Shown here piece by piece: positions 2,168 through 11,229 of a stretch of DNA of 64,000 bases. The notes under the pieces were generated by a model that was not told the DNA's origin, ran no database searches, and worked only from the letters and a program-made list of their open reading frames with translations. The number at the start of each line of letters is the position of its first letter. Position 1 is the first letter of the stretch. This DNA comes from Aequorivita xiaoshiensis (GTDB lineage: Bacteria > Bacteroidota > Bacteroidia > Flavobacteriales > Flavobacteriaceae): assembly GCF_022008395.1 (NCBI RefSeq), contig NZ_JAIRBB010000001.1, forward strand, positions 372,001 to 436,000. Direction: 5' to 3'. Made by a program: the position numbers and the translations under genes.

Positions 2168-3109
2168 ATGGAAAAAATTCACAATGAATCAAAGACTATT
2201 GTAAAAGTTGCTTTTATAATTATTATGGTGCTATGTATTTCAGGATATGTAAGCAGTCCATTAGCTTTAGTAGGTGGATTTCTATTCTCTTACTTTCTAG
2301 GGCATCCTTTTTTAACATTAAATAGTAAAGCAGTTAACTGGCTTTTAAAAGTTGCCGTTGTCGGTTTAGGTTTTGGAATGAACCTTAAGGAAACTTTAGC
2401 TGCCGGAAAGGACGGTTTTTTATTGACTGTTTTCTCTATCATTGCCACTTTATTTGTCGGCTATTTAGTGGGAAAACTCTTAAAAATGAATCGAAAAACT
2501 AGTCACTTAATTAGTTCAGGTACGGCAATATGTGGTGGAAGTGCAATTGCTGCGGTTTCACCTGTAATAAATGCTTCAGAAAAAGACATCTCTATTTCAT
2601 TGGGAGTGATTTTCTTATTAAACTCTATTGCTTTAATCGTTTTCCCACCTTTAGGTCATTTGCTTGGTCTTAGCCAGCATCAATTCGGACTTTGGTGCGC
2701 TATTGCTATACACGATACAAGCTCTGTTGTAGGGGCTGCATATGCTTTTGGGGATGAAGCCTTAAAAGTGGCTACAACAGTAAAACTTGCTAGAGCCCTT
2801 TGGATTATTCCGCTTGCATTAATATCGGTTTATTTATTCAAAGGAAAAGGGAAGAGCGTGAAAATTCCTTATTTTATATTCTTATTTGTCTTGGCTATTA
2901 TCTTGAATAGTTATTTACCAATACCGGAAACAATCACTACTAGTATCACAGGTATTTCAAAATCACTATTAGTACTTACCTTGTTCTTAATTGGGGCCGG
3001 ACTTTCTATAGATAAAATCAAGTCTGCTGGATGGAAGCCCATGATACTCGGCTTTAGTCTATGGGTTTTTATTTCGGTTAGTGCTATAGTAGCCATCCTG
3101 AGTTTGTAA
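2168..3109 (+). CDS. YeiH-family putative sulfate/anion exporter (UPF0324)
   Basis: A 313-residue polytopic membrane protein of the YeiH / Cons_hypoth698 family, annotated elsewhere as a putative sulfate exporter. Visible signs are about ten hydrophobic helices covering nearly all of the chain and the family signature GTAICGGSAIAAVSPVI around residue 118, followed by an HDTSSVVGAAYAFG stretch near residue 185. The true substrate of the family is poorly established. It follows the MscS gene by 53 bp on the same strand and converges on the transhydrogenase operon, from which it is separated by a hairpin at 3141-3179. Confidence 0.85.
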   Translation: MEKIHNESKTIVKVAFIIIMVLCISGYVSSPLALVGGFLFSYFLGHPFLTLNSKAVNWLLKVAVVGLGFGMNLKETLAAGKDGFLLTVFSIIATLFVGYLVGKLLKMNRKTSHLISSGTAICGGSAIAAVSPVINASEKDISISLGVIFLLNSIALIVFPPLGHLLGLSQHQFGLWCAIAIHDTSSVVGAAYAFGDEALKVATTVKLARALWIIPLALISVYLFKGKGKSVKIPYFIFLFVLAIILNSYLPIPETITTSITGISKSLLVLTLFLIGAGLSIDKIKSAGWKPMILGFSLWVFISVSAIVAILSL

Positions 3110-3200: not shown

Positions 3201-4589
3201 TTAAATTAACTTAAGCTGATTTATTATCTCTTGTAGAGAAACCTTCGCATCGCCAAAGAGAATACTACAATTGTCAAGTCCAAATAAATCGTTTTGAACT
3301 CCTGCATAACCTTTTCCCATGCTTCGTTTCATAACCACAACTTGCTTACTTTCATGAGCTCGTATAATTGGCATTCCGTAAACAGGGCTATCTGGATTGT
3401 TTTCGGCAGCTGGGTTTACAACATCGTTAGCTCCAATAACTAAAACCATATCGTATTGCGACATATTTTCGTTACCCTCATCCATCTCTTTTAAACGAGA
3501 ATACTCAACGTTTGCTTCTGCAAGTAAAACATTCATATGCCCTGGCATTCTACCTGCTACCGGGTGAATAATATAATCTACTTCACAATTTCTTTTTTCT
3601 AACATCTGTTGTAGTTGCCCGCAGGTGTGTTGAGCTTGTGCAACAGCCAAACCATAACCCGGAACGATTGCTACTCTTTGAGCAAACGAAAGTGCTAATG
3701 CCGTTTCTGAAACACTTATACCTTTAATTTCCTGCTCTTCTTCTACAGCTCCTCCTTTGCTCTTTTTAAAAGTCCCAGCAAGTACTTTCATTAAAGAACG
3801 GTTCATCGCCTTACACATTAACAAGGTAAGTAAAATACCTGCAGCTCCAACAAAAATACCACCTGCAATCATCACTTTATTACCGTAAACAAATCCGGCG
3901 AAAGCTGTTGCTATACCTGTAATACTATTTAACAGAGATATAACCACAGGCATATCTGCTCCACCAATTGGCAAAACGAAAAGCACACCATAAACCATTG
4001 CAATAACAGCTAAGATGTACATAAACACAGTAAATTCAACAGGGATAAATCCGATAAAATAAAGCCCTGGAAGCAAAAACATTAAAAGTAAAAGAAATCT
4101 TGCTGAAAATATTACCAACTTAGTACGTCTGTCTTTTACTTTACCTGCCAGTTTACGCTCGGCAATAATACTACCCGTAAGAGCTACAGCTCCCGTAATT
4201 AAACCTGAAATAAGAAGAATTTTATTGCCTAATATGGCTGTTGCAGCATCCATTTGATTGGCTTCTACTAAACCTAATAACATTGCACACCCACCCCCAG
4301 TAGCGTTAAACAGCGATACTAATTGCGGCATACCTGTCATTTCAACTTTATCTGAAAGCCTTTTACCTACTACAGTACCAACTGCGATAGCTAAAAATAA
4401 TATTATTAAGTTAGTATAGGGTACCGTTTCAGTTACAGCCGAAATAAATGTGATTACAACGGCTAGGGTCATCCCCGAGGCAGCTATAAGGTTACCGGTT
4501 TTTGCATTTTTAGGAGAACTCATAAATTTTAATCCACCTAAAAAGGAAAGAGTTGCTAATAAATAACCTATTTCAATGATTGCTTGCAT
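3201..4589 (-). CDS. pntB: NAD(P) transhydrogenase subunit beta
   Basis: A 462-residue beta subunit of the proton-translocating nicotinamide nucleotide transhydrogenase, which uses the proton gradient at the inner membrane to make NADPH from NADH. Residues ~1-270 form eight to nine membrane helices (the proton channel, with the other half in PntAB). Residues ~285-462 are the soluble NADP(H)-binding domain III, recognised by VPGYGLAVAQAQH, by VIHPVAGRMPGHMNVLLAEA (residues ~345-365) and by GANDVVNPAA. It is last in the pntAA-pntAB-pntB operon, 67 bp after pntAB. Length and domain order are normal for the family. Confidence 0.96.
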   Translation of the reverse strand: MQAIIEIGYLLATLSFLGGLKFMSSPKNAKTGNLIAASGMTLAVVITFISAVTETVPYTNLIILFLAIAVGTVVGKRLSDKVEMTGMPQLVSLFNATGGGCAMLLGLVEANQMDAATAILGNKILLISGLITGAVALTGSIIAERKLAGKVKDRRTKLVIFSARFLLLLMFLLPGLYFIGFIPVEFTVFMYILAVIAMVYGVLFVLPIGGADMPVVISLLNSITGIATAFAGFVYGNKVMIAGGIFVGAAGILLTLLMCKAMNRSLMKVLAGTFKKSKGGAVEEEQEIKGISVSETALALSFAQRVAIVPGYGLAVAQAQHTCGQLQQMLEKRNCEVDYIIHPVAGRMPGHMNVLLAEANVEYSRLKEMDEGNENMSQYDMVLVIGANDVVNPAAENNPDSPVYGMPIIRAHESKQVVVMKRSMGKGYAGVQNDLFGLDNCSILFGDAKVSLQEIINQLKLI

Positions 4590-4656
4590 TGGTTTTTTTA
4601 ATTTTTGGGAATTAGTTGGAAAGAAATCGGATTTAAAGGAAAAGGGTTTAATCCTT

Positions 4657-4965
4657 CTATTTGCTATTTTCTTTTTTAGGACTAAACATTTTAAGCATAC
4701 GTCCGGTTACAAAGAAGCCTCCAGAAATATTCAATGTTCCAAGAAAGACTGCAATACCTCCTAAAGTAAGATTGAGGTAATCGTCTTCTGGAACTTTTAG
4801 CATAACTATAATAGCTCCTACTAAAATAACACCACTAATAGCATTAGCACCAGACATAAGTGGTGTGTGTAGAATAGCAGGTACGTTTGAAATTACTTCA
4901 ATGCCAATAAAGACACAAAAAATAACAAAATAAATTTCTTGAATGTGTTGGTTGATGAAATCCAT
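4657..4965 (-). CDS. pntAB: NAD(P) transhydrogenase subunit alpha, membrane part
   Basis: A 102-residue protein with three hydrophobic helices, matching the separate C-terminal membrane piece (alpha part 2) of transhydrogenase. The signature is VPAILHTPLMSGANAISG near residues 28-45, then a GGIAVFLGTLNISGGFFVTGRML helix pair near residues 70-92. In Escherichia coli this segment is fused to PntA; here, as in many Bacteroidota and alphaproteobacteria, it is its own gene. It starts three bases after the pntAA stop, so the two are clearly translated from one message. Confidence 0.95.
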   Translation of the reverse strand: MDFINQHIQEIYFVIFCVFIGIEVISNVPAILHTPLMSGANAISGVILVGAIIVMLKVPEDDYLNLTLGGIAVFLGTLNISGGFFVTGRMLKMFSPKKENSK

Positions 4966-4968
4966 AAT

Positions 4969-6102
4969 TTAGACTGGTTGGAATTTATTGATGAAATGTG
5001 GGTGTGTCCATTCTCCATTGTCCATAATTTTAGAACCGGATAACAATGGATCATCTACTGAATTTTCAGCTTTTTGTTTGTATTTTAAGAAAGAGAAAAA
5101 GTTATTGGATAGTAATTTTGAAGCTGCTGTAGGTATATCGGCCGAAAGGTTTGAGTTCCCAATAATTGTCACTCCATTATGTTCAATTGTTTCCTGGTTT
5201 CTAGAAAGTTCACAATTACCTCCTTGCTCTGCTGCGAGATCTATTATTACACTTCCAGGCATCATTGCTTCTACTGAACGAGTTTCAATTAGTAAAGGTG
5301 CTTTCCTCCCAGGAATATTTGCCGTACTGATTACAATATTTGCAGTTCGAATATGATTGTGGATAAGCTCTTTTTGCTTTTTCTGATATTCCTCGCTCTG
5401 TTCAACAGCATAACCTCCAGCACTAGAAGATTCGGTATAACCTTCAACTTCTATAAAAGTTGCACCAAGGCTTCGCACTTCTTCTCCTGCAGATTTGCGG
5501 ACATCAAAAGCTTCTACTACCGCACCCAAACGACGAGCTGTTGCAATAGCTTGTAGTCCTGCAACTCCAGCACCTAAAATTAAAACTTTAGCAGGAGTTA
5601 GTGTTCCCGCTGCTGTAGTAAACATTGGAAAAACTCCATTGTAAATTTCAGAAGATTTTATAACCGCTCTGTAGCCGGCCAATGAAGCCATAGACGAAAG
5701 TACGTCCATAGATTGCGCCAAGGTAGTGCGAGGCAATAAATCTAAACTATAGACGGTTGCTTGGTAATTTTTATAATTATCAAATTTAGTATCGTAAAAT
5801 AATGGATTAAAAATACCGATAAAACAAGTATTTTTCTTTATTTCAACTTCACTAGAAGTATGGTTAATAGATATAATGGTATCCGACTTTTCAAAAATAC
5901 TTTCTCGCTTCGCGCAAGTTGCTCCAGCTTGTTCGTATTCCTCATCTTTAACCTGAAGCGAGTCACCAAGTCCTGACTCAAAAAGAACATTATATTTTAA
6001 CTCTGCCGTTAGGCGTTTTACTTCTTTAGGCAATAAACATACCCGGGTATCATTATGGGTTTTTAAAATACCTATAGTTTTGGCTTGAGTGTTTTCGCTC
6101 AT
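4969..6102 (-). CDS. pntAA: NAD(P) transhydrogenase subunit alpha, NAD-binding part
   Basis: A 377-residue soluble domain I of transhydrogenase that binds NAD(H) on the cytoplasmic face. It belongs to the alanine dehydrogenase/PntA family: an N-terminal domain beginning IGILKTHNDTRVCLLP, then a Rossmann fold with GAGVAGLQAIATARRLGA around residue 170 and an acidic end of beta-2 (AFDVRKSAGEEV). The segment just after EEVRSLGATF carries the mobile-loop region. Together with pntAB and pntB it makes the complete enzyme. The small gene at 6132-6512 ends 29 bp upstream and may head the operon. Confidence 0.95.
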   Translation of the reverse strand: MSENTQAKTIGILKTHNDTRVCLLPKEVKRLTAELKYNVLFESGLGDSLQVKDEEYEQAGATCAKRESIFEKSDTIISINHTSSEVEIKKNTCFIGIFNPLFYDTKFDNYKNYQATVYSLDLLPRTTLAQSMDVLSSMASLAGYRAVIKSSEIYNGVFPMFTTAAGTLTPAKVLILGAGVAGLQAIATARRLGAVVEAFDVRKSAGEEVRSLGATFIEVEGYTESSSAGGYAVEQSEEYQKKQKELIHNHIRTANIVISTANIPGRKAPLLIETRSVEAMMPGSVIIDLAAEQGGNCELSRNQETIEHNGVTIIGNSNLSADIPTAASKLLSNNFFSFLKYKQKAENSVDDPLLSGSKIMDNGEWTHPHFINKFQPV

Positions 6103-6131: not shown

Positions 6132-6512
6132 TTATTTTAATAAAACGCTAAAATACTCTTCTTTTACTTTTCTATAGTTTGCTAAATGTTGCATATAGTT
6201 TTTTCTAAATTTTTCGTGTTCAGACACAAAAAACATATCACATTCAACATCTTCACACTCAGCAGCTCTAGGTAAACCATCTTGGTACTTTTGAAACTCT
6301 ATTATCTTTAAATTGTTTACTTCTTTTTCTTTTAGGAATTTCTCTAGCACAGCTTGTGACTCTTCCTTGGTTGTAAGTTGGGCTTTTCCTAGATCTACTA
6401 GATTAGTGATTTCTTTCCCAATGTAATTTAAATGATCTAACCAGTTTTCAAGCTCAACATAATTGTTTTTATAAGCTATTGATTCAGGGGAATCGTGATT
6501 GTAAATCTGCAT
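6132..6512 (-). CDS. conserved-looking hypothetical protein, helical
   Basis: A 126-residue soluble protein that I do not recognise. It has no signal peptide or membrane segment. The composition (many Glu, Lys, Leu, Asn) and spacing suggest mostly alpha-helix, with a likely coiled segment at residues ~25-75 (LDHLNYIGKEITNLVDLGKAQ onward). A pair of cysteines in ECEDVEC near residue 87 is the only distinctive motif. It lies 29 bp upstream of pntAA on the same strand, so it is probably cotranscribed, but nothing in the sequence ties it to transhydrogenase function. Confidence 0.6.
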   Translation of the reverse strand: MQIYNHDSPESIAYKNNYVELENWLDHLNYIGKEITNLVDLGKAQLTTKEESQAVLEKFLKEKEVNNLKIIEFQKYQDGLPRAAECEDVECDMFFVSEHEKFRKNYMQHLANYRKVKEEYFSVLLK

Positions 6513-6606: not shown

Positions 6607-7023
6607 TTATAACAATACGTCTATATCTATTGGTTTTTCTGCTTGGTTAACACTTGTAATCAGCAGTTCTTTTGAACCATTTGGAAATTTCCAAATAACA
6701 GAATCGCCTTGTGCATAGCCCATTACAGCTGCACCCATTGGAGCTAAAATCGAAATTTTATTTGCTACTATATCACGTTCGGTAGGAATTACCAGTTGAA
6801 ATTGATTTTCCCAAGTAACAGATTTAACTGTAACTACACTGTTAAAGCGAATTACATCATCAGGCATTTCATCGTTATCGCAAATACGAGCTACGGTCAT
6901 TTCTGTGCTCAATTTTTTCAACGATTCTTTTGTGTTTTCGTCCTTATAATAACCGGAAACATTTAATAGACGCTTTAAAAAGACGTATTCTTTTTTTTCT
7001 AATATCAAATTTCCATATTTCAT
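6607..7023 (-). CDS. GreA/GreB-family (Rnk-like) transcription factor
   Basis: A 138-residue protein whose C-terminal ~70 residues match the GreA/GreB C-terminal (FKBP-like) domain: VVTVKSVTWENQFQLVIP, then APMGAAVMGYAQGDSVIWKFPNG, the classic 'SPLGxALLGKxxGDxVxxxxPxG' pattern. The N-terminal part is short, like Rnk, with little room for a full Gre coiled coil, so whether it rescues backtracked RNA polymerase or only binds it is uncertain. The frame is open to a TTG at 7080, but the ATG at 7023 (MKYGNLILEKKEYVFL) gives a natural N-terminus and is chosen. It lies 99 bp downstream of gdh on the same strand. Confidence 0.8.
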   Translation of the reverse strand: MKYGNLILEKKEYVFLKRLLNVSGYYKDENTKESLKKLSTEMTVARICDNDEMPDDVIRFNSVVTVKSVTWENQFQLVIPTERDIVANKISILAPMGAAVMGYAQGDSVIWKFPNGSKELLITSVNQAEKPIDIDVLL

Positions 7024-7122
7024 GGTTCCTTTGTCTGTTTTAAAAAAAGATAGTTCATCACAGTGCTTTATAAAAAACAATATGTGAGGAGGACGAACTA
7101 TCTTTTATTAGTTGGTAAAAGA

Positions 7123-8418
7123 TTATGGAAATATACCTCTAAGTATATAAGCTTTTTCAATACGCTCAATGGCTATACTAAAAGCTGCTGTTCTCATATC
7201 TGTTTTATTTTCTTCTGTGTAATTAACAACTTTCTCAAATGAAGTACGAAGTTTCTTCTCCAGCTTTTCTAGAATCTCATCCATTTGCCAAAGTTCTCCA
7301 TTACGATTTTGAAGCCATTCAAAATAACTTCCTATTACACCTCCTGAATTACATAGAATGTCGGGAATAATAGTTATTCCACGTTCCATTAATATTTTTT
7401 CTCCTTCAACATCTGTAGGACCATTTGCTCCTTCAGCAATTAAAGTTGCTTTTACAGTATGTGCATTATGCTTAGTAATTTGATTTCCTAATGCCGCCGG
7501 AATACAGATATCGCAATCTATACTGAAAAATTCTTTACTATCAAATGGTTCGGCTTCTGGGAAACCTAAGATGCTTCCATTGTTTGAAATACTATAGTTA
7601 AATAAATCTTCAGTAGAAATACCTTCTTTATTTTGGACACTTCCAAAAGCATCTTGTACACCTACCAATTTGGCGCCTTCTATTTCTAGGAAATGTGAAG
7701 CCCAATAGCCCACATTACCAAAGCCTTGAACGATGTACTTTTTTCCTGCTAAACTAATATTATTCTTTTCTGCCCAGAATTTAATTGTTAAGAAAACACC
7801 ATAACCTGTTGCTCGATCACGACCTTCTAAACCACCACTTCCTGTTGGCTTTCCTGTAACAACGTGCTGGTTTTTTGAGCGTTCACTAGTACTTTTAGTA
7901 CTCATATAAGTGTCGGCAATCCACGCCATTGTTTGTGCGTTAGTATTTACATCTGGAGCAGGAATATCGTGCTCAGGTCCTATATTTTCACCTAAAGCAT
8001 AAGTAAACCTACGGGTAATACGCTCTAATTCATTCTTAGAATACTTTGAAGGATCTATTTGAATCCCTCCTTTTGCACCTCCATAAGGCAAACCTGCCAA
8101 CGAAGTTTTCCAAGTCATCCACATCGCTAAGGCACGTGCAGCATCAATATCTACAGTAGGATGGTAACGAAGACCTCCTTTGTATGGCCCAAGTGCATTG
8201 TTATGCTGAACTCGATACCCCGTAAATATTTCCACATCGCCATTATCCATACGTACTGGAAAATTTATAATAATTTCGGTGTTAGTAATACTGAGGATTT
8301 TGCGAACATTTGGATTCAGATTTATAACATCTGCTGCGTGATTGAATTGCTCCAACACATTGTCCAACATCCCTCTTTTTAATGGCTTTGGTTTTTCCAC
8401 TGTTTGTTCGTTTATCAT
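7123..8418 (-). CDS. gdhA: glutamate dehydrogenase (Glu/Leu/Phe/Val dehydrogenase family)
   Basis: A 431-residue cytoplasmic enzyme interconverting glutamate with 2-oxoglutarate and ammonium. The N-terminal catalytic domain shows GPYKGGLRYHP and the active-site lysine motif PYGGAKGGIQIDP near residue 115. The Rossmann domain carries GFGNVGYWASHFLE near residue 233. The C-terminal region has PAALGNQIT and AEGANGPTD, both family hallmarks. Length fits the hexameric ~420-residue class; NAD versus NADP use cannot be decided here. Upstream lie a near-perfect sigma-54 promoter (8621-8636), paired palindromes (8729-8763) and an NtrC-type two-component system, which points to nitrogen-responsive control. 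Confidence 0.96.
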   Translation of the reverse strand: MINEQTVEKPKPLKRGMLDNVLEQFNHAADVINLNPNVRKILSITNTEIIINFPVRMDNGDVEIFTGYRVQHNNALGPYKGGLRYHPTVDIDAARALAMWMTWKTSLAGLPYGGAKGGIQIDPSKYSKNELERITRRFTYALGENIGPEHDIPAPDVNTNAQTMAWIADTYMSTKSTSERSKNQHVVTGKPTGSGGLEGRDRATGYGVFLTIKFWAEKNNISLAGKKYIVQGFGNVGYWASHFLEIEGAKLVGVQDAFGSVQNKEGISTEDLFNYSISNNGSILGFPEAEPFDSKEFFSIDCDICIPAALGNQITKHNAHTVKATLIAEGANGPTDVEGEKILMERGITIIPDILCNSGGVIGSYFEWLQNRNGELWQMDEILEKLEKKLRTSFEKVVNYTEENKTDMRTAAFSIAIERIEKAYILRGIFP

Positions 8419-8620
8419 TTTAAATAATTTTAATTAGCCGCCATCTCTGGCTTCCTTTTTAGTAAAGGCTTCGGTGCGTTTTGCTGAAATTTCTCAAAAT
8501 CGCTACAGATAAACACCAAGCTTGGATTATGCGTAAACACAAAATAAGTAACGTATGAACGTTTGATAACAAAAATTTTTTATGCTTTCTCCTGCTTATA
8601 AATTACTTAGATATTTTATC

Positions 8621-8636
8621 GGCAAGGCGCGTGCCA
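8621..8636 (-). promoter_or_regulatory. sigma-54 (-24/-12) promoter upstream of glutamate dehydrogenase
   Basis: On the minus strand the sequence reads TGGCACGCGCCTTGC (8636 to 8622), an exact match to the sigma-54 consensus TGGCAC-N5-TTGC. It points toward gdh; transcription would start near 8610, leaving a leader of about 190 nt. It is GC-rich inside a very AT-rich 398-bp spacer (8419-8816) that otherwise holds only the palindromes at 8729-8763. No other exact match was noticed in the window. Confidence 0.85.
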
Positions 8637-8728
8637 TCTATTATTTTATAGTCATAAATTTACACAAACATTTGAAAGAACAGGCCTTTAGACAATTTTT
8701 TGCAATAAAAATTTAAGCTATAGTCTGA

Positions 8729-8763
8729 GGAGAAATTTCTCAGGTGGGGAGAAATTCCCCACC
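8729..8763. promoter_or_regulatory. twin palindromes, candidate enhancer (UAS) for the NtrC-type regulator
   Basis: Two adjacent inverted repeats share the core GGAGAAATT at a 19-bp offset (8729-8737 and 8748-8756). The first contains the perfect palindrome GAGAAATTTCTC (8730-8741). The second has arms GGTGGGGA (8743-8750) and TCCCCACC (8756-8763). They lie roughly 95-140 bp upstream of the sigma-54 promoter, the usual position for enhancer sites of NtrC-family activators, and about two helical turns apart. They also lie just past the stop of the regulator gene, so a role as its terminator is possible, but no T-tract follows. Confidence 0.6.
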
Positions 8764-8816
8764 CTAAAATAAAAGGTGGTAAGAAAGGTATGACGTTTTT
8801 TGAAAGACTCTAACTA

Positions 8817-10133
8817 CTATTCTTTAATTTTACCACGAAGTGTCTTTCGGTCGATATTGAGAATTTCTGCAGCCTTGGTTTGATTATTATTTGTAGCCTC
8901 TAGCACTTTTTGAATATAAATCTTCTCCATTTCTTTTAAAGAAAGTAAATCGCTATCAGGAAAGTCTATCTTATATTTAAGTGTTTCAGGTAAGTCTTTT
9001 ACACCAATTGTTCGGTCGCACATAATTACCGCACGCTGGATTACATTTTCCAATTCACGAATATTTCCAGGCCAATCATACCGCTGTAATAAGGCTTGCG
9101 CATCAGAATCTAGAGTAACGTAACGATCTTTATATTCATTTCCATATTTAAATAAAAATTTATCTGCTAATAACGGAATGTCTTCTTTACGCTCGCGAAG
9201 TGGTGGTACATTTATTTCTACAACTGTTAATCGATAAAAAAGATCTTCTCTAAAAGTCTCCTTCCCAATCATTTCTTTTAAATCGCTATTTGTTGCTGCA
9301 ATTACACGAACGTCAATTTTTTCTGATTTTCTTTCACCTACTTTCATCACCTCCTTCTCTTGTAAAACTCTCAAAAGTCGAGTTTGAACAGATAAGGGCG
9401 CATTTCCAATTTCATCTAAAAAGATAGTACCACCTTCAGCAGCCTGAAAAAAACCATCGCGGTCTTCATTAGCTCCCGTAAACGCTCCTTTTACATATCC
9501 AAAAAGTTCTGATTCTAATAGGTTTTCAGGAATTCCTCCACAGTTTACCGCAATAAACGGCGCACGAGAAAACTTACCATTATAGTGAATAGAACGAGCT
9601 ACCAACTCTTTTCCTGTTCCACTTTCACCACTTATAAATATTGTAGCCTTATTGTCTTTTACCCTATCAATTATCTGAAGTACGTTCTTTATTAACTGAC
9701 TCTCCCCGATAATTTCATTGTATCTATTTGTGTCAACTGATTCCGTAATTTTCTTTCGTTTAGATTTGGCTGAAAGTGATTTTAGAACCCCTTGTTTTAA
9801 TTCTTCTTTGGTGAAAGGTTTTACCAAATAATCTACCGCACCAGACTTAATAGCTGAAAGGGCATCTTGAATGGAAGGGTAGCCTGTAACCACCAATTTG
9901 GGCATATTAGGATAGTGTTCTGAAACAAATTGAATAAGTTGGAATCCATCCACTTCGGGCATTTTTAAATCGGTAATGAGCAAGTCTATTTCCGTGTCGC
10001 GCAAGATAGCCACTGCTTCTTTAACCGAAACAGCCTTATACGTATGATATCCTAACGAATGTAGATGCCGCTGAATAAGCTCAAGGATATTTATATCATC
10101 ATCAACTATCAATATGTTTTCCTTATGCAACAT
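8817..10133 (-). CDS. sigma-54-dependent response regulator, NtrC family
   Basis: A 438-residue transcription activator. Residues ~5-120 are a receiver domain with the acidic pair DD at 11-12, phosphoacceptor Asp55 (TDLKMPE) and Lys in VKPFTKEEL. Residues ~140-375 are an AAA+ sigma-54 activation domain with Walker A GESGTGKE, the sigma-54 contact loop GAFTGA, a Walker B region (TIFLDEIG) and the arginine-rich PPLRERKEDIP segment. The C-terminus is a Fis-type helix-turn-helix (NNQTKAAEILNIDRKTLR). It follows its kinase by seven bases. A sigma-54 promoter with twin palindromes lies in the next intergenic region, making gdh its most likely target. Confidence 0.95.
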   Translation of the reverse strand: MLHKENILIVDDDINILELIQRHLHSLGYHTYKAVSVKEAVAILRDTEIDLLITDLKMPEVDGFQLIQFVSEHYPNMPKLVVTGYPSIQDALSAIKSGAVDYLVKPFTKEELKQGVLKSLSAKSKRKKITESVDTNRYNEIIGESQLIKNVLQIIDRVKDNKATIFISGESGTGKELVARSIHYNGKFSRAPFIAVNCGGIPENLLESELFGYVKGAFTGANEDRDGFFQAAEGGTIFLDEIGNAPLSVQTRLLRVLQEKEVMKVGERKSEKIDVRVIAATNSDLKEMIGKETFREDLFYRLTVVEINVPPLRERKEDIPLLADKFLFKYGNEYKDRYVTLDSDAQALLQRYDWPGNIRELENVIQRAVIMCDRTIGVKDLPETLKYKIDFPDSDLLSLKEMEKIYIQKVLEATNNNQTKAAEILNIDRKTLRGKIKE

Positions 10134-10140
10134 CTGTTTT

Positions 10141-11229
10141 TTAATGTTTTTGAAATGTAATTACAAAAATAGCACCTCTAGGATTATTATCCTGATAGTC
10201 TATGGTAGCACGGTGACTTCTTATAATTCCGTGTACAACACTCAACCCAAGTCCTGAACCATCTCCAACAGATTTTGTAGTATAAAAGGGCTGAAAAATT
10301 TTGTCGACATTCTCATCTGGAACACCAGGACCTTCATCAGAAATTTTTAAGATTATACTTTTATTTTTCTGTTCCAATGCAATTGTAATTAACCCATCTT
10401 GAGGAGAAAAGTAAATGGAATTTAAAGTTAAATTAAAAATTACTTGAGTAAGCTGAATAGTATCGGCCTTAAGCATAACTGCCTCATCAGGAAGTATTAA
10501 CTTACACCTAACTTCGTTCTTTTTAAACGTAGGATCAAGTAAGTTTACGGCATCTCTAATTACAGGAACAATGTCTGTTTGATCTAGGTTTTGTGGCATT
10601 TCACAAGCAAAAAACATCAGTTTCTTAACAACTTCTCTTGAGAAAATCGCGCTATTAATTATTTTATCGAGGTCTTTGCTGGTTTGAGTGTTTTCAGTCT
10701 CTTTACTTTTTAATAATTCTGCAAAACCAAGAATATTAGCAAGAGGGGTATTGAGTTCGTGAGCAATTCCAGCAGTAATTTCACCCAAAATACTCAATCG
10801 GTCTGCGTGTTCCATTTTTCGCTTTAGAACCGTTTCATTTTCTCGAATTGACACGCGCTCTAACAAATCACCAACATTAATGGCCACAGTATCCAACAAC
10901 TGTTTTTCTTCTTTTAAAAAATCTTCATTAGAATATTTATTCGACGGATAGTGCACTTTAATATACCCATTCGACTCGTTAAAAACTTTAATATTGCTTT
11001 CAATGGTGACACTGGTTTTAGGTAGCGCATTTGAAATAAGATGAAATGGATGCGAGTTTATTTCAACAGTAGTGTGTTTATTAAATTGAAAAGACTTCCT
11101 AAGACTCAATACAATCGAGTATAGCGTTTTATCTAATTCGTTATAATCGTTGTTTACAATTATAGACGAAACCTCATACAAACAGGTGAGTTCTTTGAGA
11201 CGCTCGGTAAGATTTTCTTCTGGTGTCAT
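10141..11229 (-). CDS. cytoplasmic sensor histidine kinase (NtrB-like arrangement)
   Basis: A 362-residue histidine kinase without any membrane segment or signal peptide, so it senses something in the cytoplasm. Residues ~1-125 look like a GAF-type sensory domain. The dimerisation/phosphoacceptor domain has His157 in GIAHELNTPLANILG. The ATPase domain has the N box (TLNSIYFS), the G1 box (SDEGPGVPDENVDKIFQPF) and the G2 box (GDGSGLGLSVVHGI). The kinase and regulator genes are separated by seven bases and form one operon. A possible -7 box on this strand (TACCTTTG, 11250-11257) lies just before the start but lacks a clear -33 partner. Confidence 0.93.
   Translation of the reverse strand: MTPEENLTERLKELTCLYEVSSIIVNNDYNELDKTLYSIVLSLRKSFQFNKHTTVEINSHPFHLISNALPKTSVTIESNIKVFNESNGYIKVHYPSNKYSNEDFLKEEKQLLDTVAINVGDLLERVSIRENETVLKRKMEHADRLSILGEITAGIAHELNTPLANILGFAELLKSKETENTQTSKDLDKIINSAIFSREVVKKLMFFACEMPQNLDQTDIVPVIRDAVNLLDPTFKKNEVRCKLILPDEAVMLKADTIQLTQVIFNLTLNSIYFSPQDGLITIALEQKNKSIILKISDEGPGVPDENVDKIFQPFYTTKSVGDGSGLGLSVVHGIIRSHRATIDYQDNNPRGAIFVITFQKH

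Follow-up and report, generated by a model that had tools for sequence, protein, structure and literature searches.

The described systems closest to the locus examined here, a kinase-regulator-gdh gene set on a 64,000-nucleotide stretch of Aequorivita xiaoshiensis DNA (the window; contig NZ_JAIRBB010000001.1, positions 372,001 to 436,000), are the NtrC systems and the rocG system of Bacillus. NtrC systems use a sigma-54 promoter with upstream dyads, carry a PAS domain in NtrB, and control glnA and PII genes. In Bacillus, the glutamate dehydrogenase (GDH) gene rocG is under sigma-54 (SigL) and a dedicated activator, RocR, with a downstream enhancer. RocR is listed among PAS-bearing activators in the available text of one source (PMC4428206), and GDH is among the sigma-54 target groups predicted for Bacillota in the accessible part of a cross-phylum prediction survey (PMC12316311). 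For F. psychrophilum, the available sections of one study report a sigma-54 motif, SM4, with −24/−12 elements, mapped starts, and one mutated promoter; its printed selection of targets comprises chaperones, envelope genes, and gliding genes, with no gdh among them, and no activator site appears in those sections (PMC9723704). Overall, sigma-54 circuits of the Bacteroidota are little defined with respect to activator, exact DNA site, and targets in the literature searched.

Tandem dyads and a sigma-54 box before gdh

All parts of the locus lie on the minus strand of the window: a gene for a soluble sensor histidine kinase (10141..11229), a gene for an NtrC-type response regulator, or enhancer-binding protein (8817..10133), a predicted sigma-54 −24/−12 promoter, TGGCACGCGCCTTGC (8622..8636; predicted start near 8610), and gdh (7123..8418; 431 amino acids [aa]). 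For the three genes and the box, the positions given in the original prediction, which was made from the letters of the window, were exact. That prediction did not include an enhancer, which lies between the regulator gene and the box (8761-8726) and consists of two predicted upstream activating sites, each a 17-bp dyad: site 1, TGGGGAATTTCTCCCCA (8745..8761), and site 2, TGAGAAATTTCTCCTCA (8726..8742), both on the minus strand. Site 2 is offset by 19 bp from site 1 and by 89 bp from the −24 element. Below, G000 denotes the genome that holds the window, other G-numbers denote other genomes, and L-numbers denote loci of relatives.

Conservation of gene order and of the promoter, which the original prediction had proposed to look for in related genomes, was found in both cases. 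In the best 80 of 142 regulator relatives, the kinase-regulator-gdh order was kept in 77, with no gdh nearby in L087, L104, and L114; these 77 loci and the window form the set of 78 used here, in which the box was taken as the best match per spacer and the dyads were fitted iteratively at a fixed pitch. Dyads and a box were present in all 78. Tandem dyads at a 19-bp pitch scored at least 12 in 78/78 (lowest score, 15.1), a threshold reached by 0/78 shuffled upstream stretches and 0/78 downstream stretches; the neighboring pitches passed too (18 bp, 49/78; 20 bp, 54/78), at half the median score. The chosen boxes kept GG and TTG in 78/78 and the terminal C in 71/78, and their sixth base was C in 42 and T in 36. 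The distance from the dyads to the −24 element was 87-91 bp in 75 loci and 99-100 bp in three, and other dyad pairs with a fair box stood at 77, 78, 98, and 109 bp, in steps of about one helical turn. The three loci without a nearby gdh keep dyads (scores of 13.6 for L087, 27.3 for L104, and 27.6 for L114), with the boxes TGGCACGTGCCTTGC, TGGAATAACTATTGA, and CGGCATGCCCTTTGC, respectively. At L193 and L194, the enhancers may serve two divergent promoters, the second box being weak.

A held-out model, trained on 59 loci with Aequorivita excluded, scored the window site at 61.8, the same dyads on the other strand at 24.2, and the next place at −1.5; the maximum over 60 random Markov-1 windows was 24.1. 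As a predicted unit, the box and tandem dyads together are far beyond chance.

The spread of the unit was assessed with a promoter-unit model of 144 positions and 54 rows, one of which is the window. The gdh locus, at 61 bits, was the only strong place in G000, the next best reaching 17 bits (17.3 or less). A wider regulon in G000 was rejected after five of the 77 lesser matches (L127, L128, L130, L134, and L135) were read and no convincing dyad pair was seen. By eye, L127 has a sigma-54-like box ahead of a gene that resembles lon; in L135, such a box precedes a groES-like gene and lies on the other strand from the model match. Both are without tandem dyads. Across the family, the unit was found in 67/299 genomes (55/236 genera), and across the class, in 12/395 genomes, nine of them outside the family; at the three outside-family loci that were read, regulator, Cys-rich small open reading frame (ORF), and GDH followed in order in 3/3.

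The unit also co-occurs with one type of GDH. With the gdh clade defined by at least 72% identity, 20 unit-bearing genomes (the first listed after G000) were compared with 20 listed without the unit, three of which are <90% complete. A gdh of the clade was found in 18/20 genomes with the unit versus 0/20 without it; GDH matches of the unit-free genomes, where present, were at most 37% identical. In 18/18 cases, gdh was co-oriented and ∼130 to 1,210 bp after the unit. The unit was present and a GDH of the clade absent in G296 and G345 (weak match, E 5e-5). In G452, the regulator is present twice (L186/L187) and a unit accompanies each copy, one before gdh and the other before an exported protein; no gdh occurred in the stretch read for the latter copy.

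From the gene order, the tandem dyads, the held-out score, and the gdh-clade co-occurrence, the locus is predicted to be a dedicated enhancer-dependent switch before gdh, with one strong site in G000. Its binding-site motif, geometry, target, and taxonomic spread are all definable from sequence.

Several points weigh against this reading. Although TGGCACGCGCCTTGC is the sole exact TGGCAC-N5-TTGC in the window, allowing one mismatch gave 4 matches versus 2.32 expected, and 23/100 shuffles reached 4. In G000, TGGCAYN5TTGC had 7 sites and the reversed-pattern control also had 7; the box alone is thus not enriched and is weak evidence, and as the sole evidence for a promoter it was rejected on the window shuffles and this control. 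Choosing the best box in each spacer and fitting the dyads iteratively inflate the raw conservation counts, an inflation answered in part by the window's score under the held-out model and by the fixed dyad-box distance. The synteny is biased to close kin, since the top 80 of 142 relatives were used, and the model search of G000 scored 150 of 5194 first-look candidates. The box of L104 (TGGAATAACTATTGA) is degenerate, the dyads of L087 are weak, L204, one of the three outside-family loci that were read, has no dyad pair at the threshold used, and dyad pairs with weak boxes also stand off-turn (e.g., at 72-73 and 102 bp). For the predicted promoter assignment, conservation across relatives, and not the box alone, is decisive.

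The proteins of the pair were also characterized. The kinase has profile matches to HisKA and HATPase domains only, and its N-terminal ∼130 aa are without a Pfam match. Its maximum Kyte-Doolittle mean over 19 residues is 1.01, and therefore no membrane helix is predicted; by the same measure, 2/80 kinases of relatives exceed 1.6 (top value, 1.61). The regulator comprises a receiver domain (PF00072), a sigma-54 AAA+ domain with Walker A, and a Fis-type helix-turn-helix, and its GAFTGA motif, at residue 216, is kept in 80/80 relatives. These domain and hydropathy scans confirm the membrane-free kinase and the GAFTGA-bearing regulator that had been predicted. A PAS domain was matched in 0/30 kinases at E≤1, and the kinase N terminus had no relative among PDB sequences at E≤1; by its look, this domain may be GAF-like. 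Cys16 of the kinase, in the motif KELTCLYEVS, is invariant in 30/30 aligned kinases and is a candidate redox or ligand residue. The best NCBIfam match was AtoS for the kinase (163.7 bits; cutoff, 646) and ntrC for the regulator (419 bits, under the cutoff of 558.6), the latter followed by AtoC (410.6 bits; cutoff, 714) and ZraR. The regulator is 99% identical to its Aequorivita sinensis counterpart. G000 has one rpoN (PF04552 match, E 1.7e-50) and 9 sigma-54-activator-domain matches, of which four, the gdh-locus regulator among them, are strong (E 3.6e-66 or better).

A 200-aa membrane-like protein is encoded in 8/81 loci; it is seen in L202 (370-981) and, upstream of the kinase, in L071, L090, and L108. 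It has a weak likeness to 4HB_MCP_1 (E 0.009, below the cutoff), and in L071, L090, and L108 it is preceded by dyads without a good box. Possibly it is a separate sensor for the soluble kinase.

Microprotein cistrons and neighboring genes

An unexpected part of the module is a microprotein cistron. An ATG-initiated ORF of 39-68 codons with the pattern CX2CX5CX11C (the Cys4 ORF) occurs in 69/78 spacers and in 67 of these starts 26-43 nucleotides (nt) after the box; in L118 and L119, a Cys4 ORF that overlaps the gdh start was missed by the filter, giving a total of 71/78. The claim that gdh is the regulator's main target stands in part: a putative regulator-dependent sigma-54 promoter lies before gdh, at the one strong site of G000, but gdh is not the only target. 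In 67/78 loci, the gene that comes first behind the box is the Cys4 ORF and not gdh, and 3/80 loci keep the enhancer with no gdh nearby.

All four cysteines were kept without exception in an alignment of 39 Cys4 ORFs, and the 27-codon core has a median dN/dS of 0.21 (149 usable of 400 sampled pairs, with dS near saturation). No intact copy of the ORF is present in the window, L040, L051, L056, L090, L099, and L105. What is left in the window is a decayed remnant (8430..8579, minus strand) that has no ATG, an in-frame stop just upstream, and one of the four Cys left; L040 has the lost start in common with the window and keeps three Cys. Four examples of the microprotein gave weak sub-cutoff matches only in Pfam and NCBIfam, a comparison with PDB sequences gave one match (E 0.78), and one example had no match in plasmids. 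An AlphaFold model (pLDDT 54) was too poor for a fold search. A Cys4 profile matched 4/296 genomes of the order, each match within ∼2 kb of a promoter-unit match, a low count that could stem from which genomes were drawn or from a profile of low sensitivity.

Some spacers also contain ORFs of two Arg-rich families (39 ORFs of 38-54 codons in 29 loci). Their dN/dS values of 0.23 (25 pairs) and 0.13 (46 pairs) suggest purifying selection, from few pairs; the examples scanned had no family match above the cutoff in Pfam or NCBIfam. These ORFs lie between the Cys4 ORF and gdh, end like ...SPYRFANRRHLRNRGLINNPF or ...KYIIEKYNERSITNRLFK, and are found in loci that include L057, L059, L061-L063, L065, L068, L070, L078, L080, and L112. 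Three microprotein families without a family match, apparently under purifying selection, thus stand at a central nitrogen/carbon enzyme. An exported-looking family of 113-126 aa is encoded by the first gene after the unit in five loci (L087, 7519-7881; L105, in the spacer; L185, 1880-2260; L186, 1978-2319; L202, 1097-1459); the one member scanned had no Pfam match.

The glutamine synthetase of cyanobacteria is subject to small basic inhibitor proteins, which offers an analogy for microprotein control of GDH. We consider it a speculative and rather improbable idea that the microprotein cassette of the unit acts posttranslationally on GDH or the GreA-like factor encoded nearby, with Cys4 as a metal or redox binder and the Arg-rich proteins joining it in some genera. 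If it were so, the switch would govern, during redox or ion stress, how much GDH is made and also how active it is, and the lineage of the window would have lost Cys4 control.

The best solved relatives of the GDH itself are 1b26/1b3b/2tmg, and its match to the archaeal GdhA profile (430 bits) is under the cutoff of 750. On its 3' side, an inverted repeat, AAAAGATAGTTC/GAACTATCTTTT, with a T-run (7045..7106, minus strand) was noted by eye as a possible terminator; an automated terminator scan (loop limit of 8) found none between gdh and the following gene. That gene encodes a GreA/GreB C-terminal-domain protein (6607..7023) and is followed by H126, a gene for a 126-aa protein without a known family (6132..6512), both on the minus strand and codirectional with gdh. 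Further along are a PntAB transhydrogenase (3201-6102), a YeiH-like protein (2168-3109), and an MscS channel (963-2114). An Rfam match to the FMN riboswitch (20.8 versus a threshold of 66.2 bits) was sub-threshold and was taken as chance.

Proposed mechanism, input signal, and rival explanations

We regard it as probable, on the strength of these sequence comparisons, that the kinase, regulator, dyads, and sigma-54 box act as a switch that fires the gdh transcript, with a stress input the more likely one. The kinase would phosphorylate the receiver domain of the adjoining NtrC-type regulator, which, once active, would occupy, as an AAA+ oligomer, both 17-bp dyads, which lie 89 bp before the −24/−12 element. 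In a presumably ATP-dependent activation, the GAFTGA loop would remodel sigma-54 RNA polymerase, and one transcript, starting near 8610, would run into gdh. In most relatives, the four-cysteine microprotein would be the first cistron of this transcript; in the window lineage, the microprotein has decayed, and the promoter would therefore drive gdh through a decayed leader of ∼190 nt.

To address the input, 20 stretches of relatives picked for second or odd sites were read. In six, a unit stood away from the 3' side of the regulator: before MscS and Usp (L179), before the transhydrogenase pntAB (L180), before a ferritin-family/pirin/NhaA run (L181), before H126 and Usp (L183), before the GreA-like gene (L189), and before an alcohol-dehydrogenase/ferritin-family run (L192), the box scores of L181 and L192 being low. 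L190 and L196 had no site at the threshold used. In the remaining picked stretches, the unit followed the regulator as it usually does, and L185 carried another unit ahead of the Cys4 ORF. No second promoter unit was scored in the window, MscS and pntAB included. These other genes under the unit in relatives point weakly to redox, ion, or energy stress as the input, rather than to nitrogen limitation; the count behind this is six second sites in 20 picked stretches, two with poor boxes.

The original prediction saw in the locus a self-contained nitrogen switch, in which the kinase would read nitrogen status (PII or 2-oxoglutarate/glutamine) and gdh would serve ammonium assimilation or glutamate catabolism. 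It is true that gdh is the conserved target, that the regulator has NtrC-like architecture with ntrC as its best NCBIfam match, that a PII gene is present in G000, and that the Bacillota survey noted above, in its accessible part, has GDH as a sigma-54 target group (PMC12316311). However, the regulator is under the NtrC cutoff, the kinases are PAS-free, G000 has no strong promoter unit of the gdh-locus kind at its PII and glutamine synthetase genes, which lie elsewhere, and the other units in relatives stand before non-nitrogen genes with stress, ion, and redox functions, among them MscS/Usp, transhydrogenase, and GreA-like genes. For these reasons, the nitrogen-control label is not supported and we judge such a circuit unlikely; a regulator that resembles NtrC and is encoded next to gdh does not necessarily indicate control by nitrogen. 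A somewhat better, still doubtful, case can be made that a stress set (GreA-like factor, H126, Usp, and others) is the main output and gdh one passenger. The GreA-like gene and H126 are codirectional neighbors in 77/81 loci each (window included) and Usp is in 25/81, the unit lies directly before GreA-like genes in L162 and L114, which are without a local gdh, and L183 has it before H126 and Usp, but the linkage of gdh in 77/80 loci and the restriction of the gdh clade to genomes with the unit among the 40 compared argue for gdh as more than a passenger.

Two further explanations would dispense with the switch. Transcription of gdh by a housekeeping sigma factor, with a fortuitous box, would fit the lack of enrichment of the box alone in G000, and TATTTTGT at 8546-8539 fits TAnnTTGY, an alternative promoter class of F. 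psychrophilum according to the available sections (PMC9723704). We find it scarcely credible, with an enhancer-box geometry fixed in 78/78 loci and no TAnnTTTG in 8660-8419, the motif that the prediction had named as pointing away from sigma-54. That the dyads are RNA hairpins, forming a terminator or attenuator of the regulator transcript rather than DNA sites, is suggested by their position just 3' of the regulator stop and by a stretch that folds better than shuffles (z −2.76; 2/200 shuffles as good). It is nevertheless very improbable: a separate hairpin, AAACCCTT/AAGGGTTT, follows in many loci, the dyad-box distance is nearly fixed, and dyad copies lie upstream of other genes.

Comparison with known systems

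Like NtrB/NtrC, the switch proposed here pairs a soluble kinase with a receiver-AAA+-Fis regulator that has GAFTGA. Unlike NtrB/NtrC, the regulator scores 419 versus 558.6 bits, the kinase has no PAS domain, and no strong site lies at the glutamine synthetase or PII genes of G000; membership in NtrB/NtrC was rejected on the regulator score and the kinase domains. The resemblance to AtoS/AtoC and ZraS/ZraR, with AtoS as the top kinase match and AtoC and ZraR second and third for the regulator, likewise stops far under the cutoffs (AtoC, 410.6 of 714; AtoS, 163.7 of 646). The boxes before the lon- and groES-like genes of G000 recall the F. psychrophilum chaperone regulon, and these boxes are without dyads of the gdh-locus kind.

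No report of a kinase-regulator-enhancer-gdh module was found in the open-access literature searched. The RocR/SigL/rocG system, like this locus as predicted, places a GDH gene under sigma-54 and an activator of its own. It differs in that the regulator here has a two-component receiver (PF00072), which rules out a RocR-type PAS-AAA+-Fis one-component activator, and in that the predicted enhancer is upstream, the host belongs to the Bacteroidota, and a microprotein is the first cistron. By its predicted parts and their arrangement, the module would work as textbooks describe for a local two-component switch that uses sigma-54.

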